Assembly (NCBI RefSeq): GCF_000010985.1
Contig: NC_013939.1
Span: 1,703,501-1,767,500 of the forward strand
DNA from: Deferribacter desulfuricans SSM1
Lineage (GTDB): Bacteria; Chrysiogenota; Deferribacteres; Deferribacterales; Deferribacteraceae
Direction: 5' to 3'
Length of the DNA: 64,000 bases
Shown here: one piece after another, positions 31,603 through 34,260 of the stretch
Position numbering within the stretch: the stretch's first letter is position 1
Layout: each line of letters begins with the position of its first letter
Program-made: the position numbers and the translations under genes
The notes under the pieces: generated by a model
Told to the model about the DNA's origin: nothing
The model's input: the letters and a program-made list of their open reading frames with translations, nothing else
The model's database searches: none

Positions 31603-31674
31603 TAGGCGCGGGCGGGATTGAACCGCCGACTCCTGCGACGTCAACGCAGTGCTCTCCCACTGAGCTACGCGCCT
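31603..31674 (-). tRNA. tRNA-Val (anticodon GAC)
   Basis: A 72-nt cloverleaf: acceptor AGGCGCG with CGCGCCT, D arm GCTC-AGTGGGA-GAGC, anticodon stem CTGCG with CGCAG around TTGACGT, T arm GGCGG-TTCAATC-CCGCC and discriminator A. All stems are perfectly paired. CCA is not encoded. Confidence 0.95.
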
Positions 31675-31705: not shown

Positions 31706-33367
31706 TCAATTCAACCCAAAATCACTTAAAAGTTTATCAACATCCTCTTGACTGACTTCTAACTTTTCACCATGCATCTGCTTAACTTTTATATAACCTA
31801 AAATTGCACCAAACTTTGCACCAATCTCCTCTGTATAACTAATAATTTTTCTGATTTTTTGCTCAGTTAAATCTTGAAATTCAAGGGAATTAAGCATTTC
31901 AAATCCCATACTATCTAACATGCTTACCTTTTCATCAAATTTATCTAATATTTCAAGTAACTGAGTTTCATCATTTGAATTTGCTGCACCCTCCAACTCA
32001 TTTACCAAATCCTCCATCTCTTTATAAACTCCCACCATTTTTTCGGTATTATTCATAAGATTTAACGCTGCTGTTTCAGCTTTTTCAGTGACATCATCCA
32101 ATGACTCTTTAACTGTGGGTATTTTTACTGAAGAATCATTTATTGTGGGCTCTAAATCATCGATTTTATTTTTAGTTTCTAATAAAAGTTTTAAAAGCTC
32201 ACCAACCTCGCCTTTGATATCTATATCTAAATCAGAGATCTCACCTTTTATTATCTTCTCAGCTAACTGCTTAATCTCTTCTACAGAATCTCTTTCTATA
32301 ACTAAATTATCATTATTTATATTTTCTTCTTCATTATCAACAGTTGTATTTTCGGATTGAAATTCTACACTCTCATCTGATTCAACTATTTTTTTTTTAC
32401 TTTTTTTTCTCTTTATAAGCTCTTCTGTCTCTTTTTCCCTCTTTTCCAATTCTGCTGCAATTAAAGCATCTAAATCATCCTGACTTACATGCTCAGATTC
32501 GCTTTGATATATCTTTTCACTTTGCTCCAATGCATCATTCAACACCTCATCTACAGATTCCTCTACCCTCTTTTTCTTCTTTTTAATCAACTCTTCAGTT
32601 TCTTTTTCCCTTTTTTCTAACTCTGCCGCAATTAATGCATCTATATCATCTAAATCAGAAGTACTTTCACTTTTAGTATCCTCATCAACAACCATAACTT
32701 CTTTTTCAATATTAGTTTCAGGTTTTACTTCTTCCTCTTTAGCAATAGCTATCTGCTCTTCCTTAGCTTCCTCACCCTTATGAGTTGATGTATTATTCTC
32801 ATTTTGAGTAGATTCCTCAATATCCACTGAAGAGCCACTATCCTCGTTATTATTGAAAAAGCGTTTTTTTAACTCACTATCCTCTTTGCTCTCCCCAAAA
32901 ATCACTCTATCTATATCTAACAAAATAATTAATCTTTCGTTATATTTACATATCCCCAAAATATATTCTTGGCCAACTGATCCAACAAGAGGTGGAGTGG
33001 GCTCTACAATACTTTTTGTAATCCTCATTACTTCTGTAACTTCATCAACAACAAAACCAATACTCTCTTTTTCAAAATTTACAACTATGATTCTGGTATT
33101 TTTATCAAAATCACTTTTATCCAGATTAAATCTTAATCTTAAATCAACAACGGGAATAACTTTACCTCTTAAATTCATAACTCCTAAAACAAAATGATCA
33201 ACTCTTGGAACTGCTGTAATCTCTACCATTCTAATGATTTCCTGCACCTTCAAAATATCAATGGCATACTCTTCATCACCCAATTTAAAGCCAACAAGCT
33301 GTATTATTTCCTCATCAACAATTTCATCATCAAAATTATCTTTTGCTAATACCTTATCATCCAACAT
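31706..33367 (-). CDS. CheW-CheZ fusion protein with repeated CheY-P docking-like motifs
   Basis: A 553-residue protein. Residues about 18-158 are a CheW domain (VGFKLGDEEYAIDILKVQEI, GVMNLRGKVIPVVDLR). Residues 160-370 are acidic, Lys-rich and low in complexity, and carry two copies of a 20-residue repeat starting DALIAAELEK. The rest resembles CheZ: an antiparallel helix pair, the catalytic-type FQDLTEQKI at about 497-505, and the tail SQEDVDKLLSDFG, very like the CheZ CheY-binding tail. SQDDLDALI at 295 also resembles the FliM N-terminal peptide. It should couple receptor arrays and CheY-P dephosphorylation. ATG 33367 has GAGG upstream; ATG 33379 is possible. Confidence 0.8.
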   Translation of the reverse strand: MLDDKVLAKDNFDDEIVDEEIIQLVGFKLGDEEYAIDILKVQEIIRMVEITAVPRVDHFVLGVMNLRGKVIPVVDLRLRFNLDKSDFDKNTRIIVVNFEKESIGFVVDEVTEVMRITKSIVEPTPPLVGSVGQEYILGICKYNERLIILLDIDRVIFGESKEDSELKKRFFNNNEDSGSSVDIEESTQNENNTSTHKGEEAKEEQIAIAKEEEVKPETNIEKEVMVVDEDTKSESTSDLDDIDALIAAELEKREKETEELIKKKKKRVEESVDEVLNDALEQSEKIYQSESEHVSQDDLDALIAAELEKREKETEELIKRKKSKKKIVESDESVEFQSENTTVDNEEENINNDNLVIERDSVEEIKQLAEKIIKGEISDLDIDIKGEVGELLKLLLETKNKIDDLEPTINDSSVKIPTVKESLDDVTEKAETAALNLMNNTEKMVGVYKEMEDLVNELEGAANSNDETQLLEILDKFDEKVSMLDSMGFEMLNSLEFQDLTEQKIRKIISYTEEIGAKFGAILGYIKVKQMHGEKLEVSQEDVDKLLSDFGLN

Positions 33368-33375
33368 AACACACC

Positions 33376-34260
33376 TCATAATTTAGCAATTATATTATCA
33401 GCAATCTCATCAAAACGTTCTTTTATAAAACTATTATCGGTCATAAAATAAAATGGTTCAAGCCTTTTTAAAGATTCCTGAATACTTAAATCGTAAGGTA
33501 AAAAACCAAGCTTTTCCATACTAATATTCAAATATTTCTTCGCAACATTTTCAAAACCAAAAAATACATTTAACTCTTTTTTAAATTTCAACATATTTAA
33601 AACCATGCCTACTTTATAATTATCGACAATTCCTTCAACAACCTTTACTACTTTTTCATCATAACTCTTTATATCTTCTATTATATCTGAGACCTTTGTG
33701 TAATTTTTACTTCTACTCCTCAACCTGCTCGCAATTTTCTCCAAAAGAGGATTGTTTTTTATTGACTTTTCAATCATTCTATACAGAGCAATTTTAATGA
33801 ACCCATAGGAATTTTCAATTGAAGTTGGTTCACTATTCATGATGATAATCTTTTTATCTGAAAAATTAAAAAAATCTATCATATTATAACTTGTGCCAGC
33901 ACCTAAATCCATAATGACAAAATCATAGTTTAATCTCTTCAATGTATTTATAATTTTTAACTTTTCATAGTTTGTGATATGTGCCATCCCCAAAATATCG
34001 CTTGCACCACCAATAAATTTTATACCTGCAGGTGTATCAATAATAATATTTTCTATATTTTGTTTCTCTTTTAAAAAATTGTAGATACCAACATTTGCTG
34101 TTTTTAAGCCAACAAAGTTATGTAAATTTGCTCCACCCAAATCACCATCCACAAGCAAAACTTTATAACCTTTATTTTTCATCCCCATAGCTAAGTTAGC
34201 AGAAAAAAAACTCTTACCAACTCCACCTTTACCACTGGCAATCGATATTATATTTGCCAT
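33376..34260 (-). CDS. FlhG/YlxH-like MinD-family ATPase
   Basis: A 294-residue ParA/MinD ATPase with Walker A SGKGGVGKS at residues 8-16, switch region LVDGDLGGANLHNFVG and VIMDLGAGTSYN. It has no ferredoxin insert, unlike the pair at 15250-16958. Its position beside chemotaxis and flagellar genes suggests FlhG-type control of flagellar number or location; no flhF is seen in the window. The stop overlaps the longest version of the next frame by four bases. Confidence 0.75.
   Translation of the reverse strand: MANIISIASGKGGVGKSFFSANLAMGMKNKGYKVLLVDGDLGGANLHNFVGLKTANVGIYNFLKEKQNIENIIIDTPAGIKFIGGASDILGMAHITNYEKLKIINTLKRLNYDFVIMDLGAGTSYNMIDFFNFSDKKIIIMNSEPTSIENSYGFIKIALYRMIEKSIKNNPLLEKIASRLRSRSKNYTKVSDIIEDIKSYDEKVVKVVEGIVDNYKVGMVLNMLKFKKELNVFFGFENVAKKYLNISMEKLGFLPYDLSIQESLKRLEPFYFMTDNSFIKERFDEIADNIIAKL

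Follow-up and report, generated by a model that had tools for sequence, protein, structure and literature searches.

The CheW–CheZ fusion gene of Deferribacter desulfuricans SSM1 is probably a recoded gene of the dnaX kind, yielding two proteins: a CheW domain followed by a linker with repeated modules, and the same protein extended into a CheZ phosphatase domain. The gene lies on the reverse strand of the window (the whole stretch of DNA analysed, 64,000 nucleotides of contig NC_013939.1), in a 2.54-Mb genome of the phylum Deferribacterota that consists of two replicons, the second of 308 kb. The recoding signal is the most unusual feature of the gene. The original prediction for this locus did not mention the A8 and A10 runs, the −1-frame stops or the coupled ATPase gene that we describe below; it proposed a CheW–CheZ fusion with peptides that dock phosphorylated CheY (CheY-P).

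Domains and linker modules of the fusion protein

The longest open reading frame of the fusion gene (31706..33379, reverse strand) encodes 557 amino acids, or 553 if translation starts at Met5. Reading of the sequence revealed GAGGTG about 7 nt 5′ of Met5 (33367), which appears the likelier start over the first ATG and agrees with the start originally assigned. Residues 27–160 (32900..33301, reverse strand) form a CheW domain (PF01584, 1.6e-40) that scored 138.4 bits against a curated cut-off of 23.5, and Foldseek matched this part to the CheW structures 8c5v and 2qdl. The domain is a full CheW, sharing 38% identity with its E. coli counterpart in the structural match; the fusion adds a long module linker and a CheZ domain to it. 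A tRNA-Val(GAC) gene lies directly downstream of the fusion gene (31603–31674, reverse strand).

The CheZ phosphatase domain occupies residues 390–527 (31799..32212, reverse strand; PF04344; 1kmi_Z). The whole protein scored 25.8 bits against PF04344, whereas the C-terminal 194 residues scored alone reached 34.8 bits against a cut-off of 30.7, and the family was matched by the CheZ part of 15 out of 15 orthologues. A profile built from the fusion orthologues retrieved E. coli CheZ (1kmi_Z) at 1.3e-5 and placed D503 and Q507, which lie in the active-site segment LEFQDLTEQ (31859..31885, reverse strand), on the E. coli residues D143 and Q147. Both catalytic residues are invariant in group A1. 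AlphaFold predicts a helical hairpin in the CheZ part (415–467/471–535); a Foldseek search with this low-confidence model (pLDDT 64) gave no significant match, with 1kmi_Z at an E value of 0.35. The C-terminal tail VSQEDVDKLLSDFGLN (31709..31756, reverse strand) is the counterpart of the CheY-binding end of CheZ; it includes SQEDVDKLL and is degenerate in the Mucispirillum-type family, whose modules remain. The domain has in common with CheZ (PF04344, 1kmi) the equivalents of D143 and Q147 and the CheY-binding tail, and perhaps the hairpin, but differs in its fusion to CheW, in its weak sequence similarity and in having a standalone CheZ besides it. Because the genome also encodes that second, standalone CheZ, the fusion is not the sole phosphatase. 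Overall, the predicted CheW–CheZ fusion holds, with both domains above cut-off (the CheZ part when scored alone) and the catalytic Asp and Gln present, and its domains, its catalytic residues and its conservation across the phylum give good support to the idea that it may act as a CheY-P phosphatase attached to the receptor array.

Between the two domains lie two linker modules, module 1 (IDALIAAELEKREKETEELIKKKK; 32573..32644, reverse strand; residues 246–269) and module 2 (SQDDLDALIAAELEKREKETEELIKRKK; 32402..32485, reverse strand; residues 299–326). They share 20 identical residues (DALIAAELEKREKETEELIK), and 10 of the 20 codons differ synonymously, which reproduces the repeat described in the original prediction. 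These synonymous differences, together with the presence of both modules across the phylum, exclude a fresh duplication. The view that the repeats are old and selected was likewise upheld: both modules occur in nearly every relative, with one to four copies depending on lineage (two in most genomes, three in one genus and three to four in Chrysiogenota relatives). Module pairs are more alike within a genome than across genera (0.853 versus 0.788; about 0.1% of permutations were as high), as expected if both modules see one co-evolving partner. We also considered recent gene conversion between the modules, but their synonymous sites differ, and shared selection is likelier.

AlphaFold predicts helices at residues 246–292 and 300–332 (pLDDT about 75–88) and disorder in the remaining linker. 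The conserved unit of each module is a helix of roughly 22 residues (LIAxELxKRExETEEL...), of which only the first 6–10 residues are FliM-like; its I/L-D-x-L-I and EL..RE residues are near-invariant across orthologues. A scan for [DE][ILV]D.L[ILM] in 37,781 residues, covering the open reading frames of the window and of the chemotaxis loci of the same genome, returned four matches. Three were in the fusion protein and the sole other one was at the N-terminus of FliM, so the likeness of the three peptides to the CheY-binding motif of FliM and CheZ, which had been noticed originally, is not due to chance. With the N-terminal EIDALL of FliM/FliY the fusion peptides share an E/D-I/L-D-x-L-L/I core, and in module 2 a Q stands before it; the FliM/FliY motif is N-terminal, whereas the fusion copies are internal, repeated one to four times and set within a longer conserved helix.

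Spread of the fusion, the upstream ATPase and the partner of the modules

A search for the same fusion in related genomes, which the original prediction had proposed as a check, found it in one frame in 35 genomes and with CheZ frame-shifted in nine. Orthologues across the phylum rule out a fusion peculiar to the D. desulfuricans genome. A scan of genome contigs with the CheZ region gave 37 loci, all in Deferribacterota, although its pattern was narrow and leaves absence outside the phylum unproven. Two reduced-genome relatives (L126 in G004 and L127 in G005) are without CheZ. In G004, the ATPase, CheW and one module are still adjacent, and long DAST-type repeats lie within the CheW–module linker. 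The only other occurrence of the module in the D. desulfuricans genome is in a CheW paralogue on the plasmid (L051, G000:C2:200334-201092), which is 61% identical and has one module, no CheZ and no ATPase alongside. This paralogue amounts to a naturally occurring short form. It sits in a second chemotaxis cluster with CheA, CheY and a CheV-like protein, and the cluster is flanked by two IS200/IS605-like units (TnpB-like plus small transposase; L051 834–2280 and 14066–15000).

Immediately upstream of the fusion gene, on the same strand (33376..34260), lies a gene for a MinD/FlhG-like ATPase of the ParA family (294 residues), the stop codon of which shares bases with the ATG that opens the longest fusion frame. 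ATPase and fusion are adjacent in every genome in which both were read. The ATPase gene was found in 48 of 51 genomes; the other three had no FliM or CheZ matches, and one of these is 64% complete. The nearest solved relatives of the coupled ATPase are FleN/FlhG. FlhG is defined by a DQAxxLR helix (PMC12826062), and no N-terminal helix of this kind was found in the coupled ATPase, the N-terminus of which reads MANIISIASGKGGVGK. A proper FlhG (DQASILR) is encoded at C1:404234, in a flagellar cluster with FliM, CheY and the standalone CheZ. Given the missing helix and the separate FlhG, we rejected an assignment of the coupled ATPase as FlhG. The gene arrangement resembles that of the Vibrio ParC–ParP system, in which a ParA-family ATPase has a CheW-domain partner (PMC5706961), and is matched here by adjacency and co-occurrence; the fusion also bears CheZ and FliM-like modules. 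Because G004 keeps the ATPase, CheW and a module without CheZ, the CheW–module part seems to belong with the ATPase, which suggests that CheZ is an added, adjustable part.

CheY-P binds the EIDALL motif at the N-terminus of FliM (PMC9126983). The FliM N-terminus is also a target of FlhG, which is itself a MinD-like ATPase (PMC12826062). It is plausible from their sequences that all three fusion peptides dock CheY-P. The partner of the modules would most likely be CheY-P, or possibly the coupled ATPase, and because the modules are in both predicted products, they cannot serve CheZ alone. A less likely but serious alternative, compatible with recoding, is that the modules bind the coupled MinD/FlhG-like ATPase in the fashion of ParC and ParP and that their likeness to CheY-binding peptides is secondary. 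Translational coupling and co-occurrence fit this proposal, as do the kinship of the ATPase to FleN/FlhG, the binding of the FliM N-terminus by FlhG (PMC12826062), the union of a CheW-like part and a ParC-binding part in ParP (PMC5706961) and the retention of module, CheW and ATPase without CheZ in G004, whereas the module of the plasmid paralogue has no neighbouring ATPase and the ATPase lacks the FlhG-defining helix. It is less probable again, although also compatible with recoding, that the modules are mere charged coiled-coil spacer helices between CheW and CheZ. Their long predicted helices and charge-rich sequence would suit such a role, but a spacer needs none of the near-invariant I/L-D-x-L-I and EL..RE residues that stand out in an otherwise free linker.

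Adenine runs between the modules and CheZ

Module 2 is directly followed on the coding strand by AAAAAAAAGTAAAAAAAAAA, and this region has two candidate slip sites. In the first, an A8 run (32401..32408, reverse strand), one added A leads to TAA at 32397–32399 and a product of 327 residues; in the main candidate, an A10 run (32389..32398, reverse strand) that lies between the modules and CheZ, it leads to TGA at 32382–32384 and a product of 332 residues. The A10 run is the only A or T run of at least nine in the window, compared with about ten A10 matches expected from shuffles of the window. The whole genome holds eight A runs of at least ten. The other A10 runs are in or near intergenic DNA or near the ends of open reading frames, with one exception inside a frame of 148 residues.

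We surveyed 12 other genomes, one per genus. In every one of the 12, the coding strand of the fusion gene contains a stretch of ten or more A's, although each genome has just 3–15 such stretches in total. With runs placed at random, one would fall in the fusion gene with a chance of 0.1–0.5% per genome, although kinship reduces the independence of these cases; synonymous sites should be saturated at the divergence of the 12 genera. In 35 of 35 fused genes, an A added to the run brings up a stop no more than about 2.3 codons on (in G050 by its A10, which is positioned after module 1), and loss of an A usually leads to a stop within 13 codons. Deferribacteres orthologues carry runs of A10–A14 with stops in both other frames. 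Five Mucispirillum-type loci (L010, L011, L012, L019 and L021) have another run, A10/A11, behind module 1, with a +1-A stop 6–8 codons on, which could release a product of CheW and one module.

Synonymous resampling of each gene showed that a run with a near −1 stop is not rare given the protein sequence (0.02–0.43 per gene), so the force of the argument lies in repetition across genera and in the genome-wide rarity of A10, not in single genes. The lysines that the run encodes might also have been kept for their charge, which counts against recoding. The gene might make a single CheW–CheZ product in which CheY-P is docked by the linker peptides and the tail and handed to CheZ at the array, with the poly-A being AT-rich lysine coding. 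The specificity of the EIDALL-like pattern to the fusion and FliM, the conserved CheZ tail and active site and the conserved lysines beside the modules are all in keeping with one product. We nonetheless regard this as improbable, because it leaves unexplained the conservation of A10 where A10 is avoided, the universal −1 stops and the repeated reversals that put CheZ out of frame (below), and because the modules outlast CheZ in G004 and in the plasmid paralogue.

Reversed frames and parallels with dnaX

In nine genomes, frame 0 stops just past the run and CheZ lies in a shifted frame. This split set comprises three of three genomes of genus g5, four of four of genus g13, G030 and G032; on the phylogeny of the adjacent ATPase (G032 absent from it), no fewer than three changes are required to explain the split state. 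No convincing Shine–Dalgarno sequence and start codon were found ahead of CheZ in the reversed genes. The shifted frame is open for about 140–220 linker codons ahead of CheZ, and between the run and CheZ it shows an excess of third-position substitutions (102/76/133 and 75/55/97). With no clear CheZ start and a coding-like shifted frame, CheZ in these genomes is most simply reached by frameshifting. G018 carries extra stops, and the opposite shift is needed in G017 and G030. In G019 (L116), the shifted-frame linker contains a tandem protein repeat (EEIVDEIEEQIELPEDLEDILEETEEV) ahead of CheZ. Assembly errors or ordinary gene fission are very unlikely to account for the reversed genes: although several of these genomes are metagenome bins, in which errors in homopolymers occur, all genomes of two genera (4/4 and 3/3) are split at the same site, one split genome is a single contig of 3.2 Mb, and the long open frame has coding-like substitutions and no clear CheZ start.

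The dnaX-like reading draws further on the Chrysiogenota relatives (L128, L129 and L130), in which GGA AAA AAG provides an A_AAA_AAG heptamer followed by a −1 stop, as in the −1 frameshift of E. coli dnaX. A GC stem-loop of about 8–10 bp lies close behind the heptamer in three of three genomes, again as in E. coli dnaX, although these stems are no stronger than those of shuffles. The +1 frame is without a near stop; this combination is what ribosomal −1 shifting would require. Among the Deferribacteres, downstream stems are strong in G020, G021 and G019 (z of −3.1 to −5.5; some genomes of f5) and absent in others. The Deferribacteres A10 runs, with stops in both other frames, instead resemble dnaX of Thermus thermophilus, where transcriptional slippage works on nine A's or T's (PMC5009743). 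The decoding mechanism may thus differ by lineage, ribosomal −1 shifting in one and transcriptional slippage in another. The tau and gamma products of dnaX likewise differ by a C-terminal domain, and lineages in which the product that needs the shift is reversed are known for dnaX (PMC5009743). A difference is that dnaX encodes a polymerase subunit, whereas the fusion is a chemotaxis adaptor and phosphatase in which slippage is inferred from sequence.

In our model, standard decoding in D. desulfuricans would give the full CheW–modules–CheZ protein. A slip at A8 or A10, with RNA polymerase adding A's or the ribosome shifting by −1, would give a CheW–modules protein that ends a few residues on. 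Both forms would join chemoreceptor arrays through CheW and only the long form would carry CheZ, such that the slip ratio would set the amount of CheY-P phosphatase per array. In both forms, the modules would dock a partner that recognizes EIDALL-type motifs, most likely CheY-P; the translationally coupled MinD/FlhG-like ATPase, positioning the array, is another possible partner. In E. coli, a short CheA that binds CheZ is translated from an internal start in cheA. This likewise puts CheZ at the array through the second product of one che gene, whereas the fusion carries CheZ as a covalent part and would owe its second product to frameshifting. A fuller proposal, which is tentative and somewhat less than an even bet, is that a phylum-wide frameshift fixes the ratio of phosphatase-free to phosphatase-bearing CheW within a positioning system of the ParA/MinD type, with modules that dock both CheY-P and the ATPase, a mechanism that has switched and frame roles that have reversed several times.

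To our knowledge, few cases of productive frameshifting in bacterial cellular genes are known, such as dnaX and prfB. In the open-access literature, we found no paper on 'CheW-CheZ' and no comparable case of recoding in chemotaxis, and no chemotaxis term was found in a survey of frame transitions (PMC3711429). Automatic annotation would treat the reversed genes as disrupted and overlook the short form made from the fused ones. Deferribacter, Denitrovibrio and Chrysiogenes are culturable hosts, which makes recoding testable. If true, this conserved chemotaxis gene would join dnaX as the second natural system of its kind, one whose frame roles reversed independently and whose mechanism apparently changed, and it would reveal a novel means of setting the stoichiometry of a signalling array and of putting a CheY-P sink at its source.
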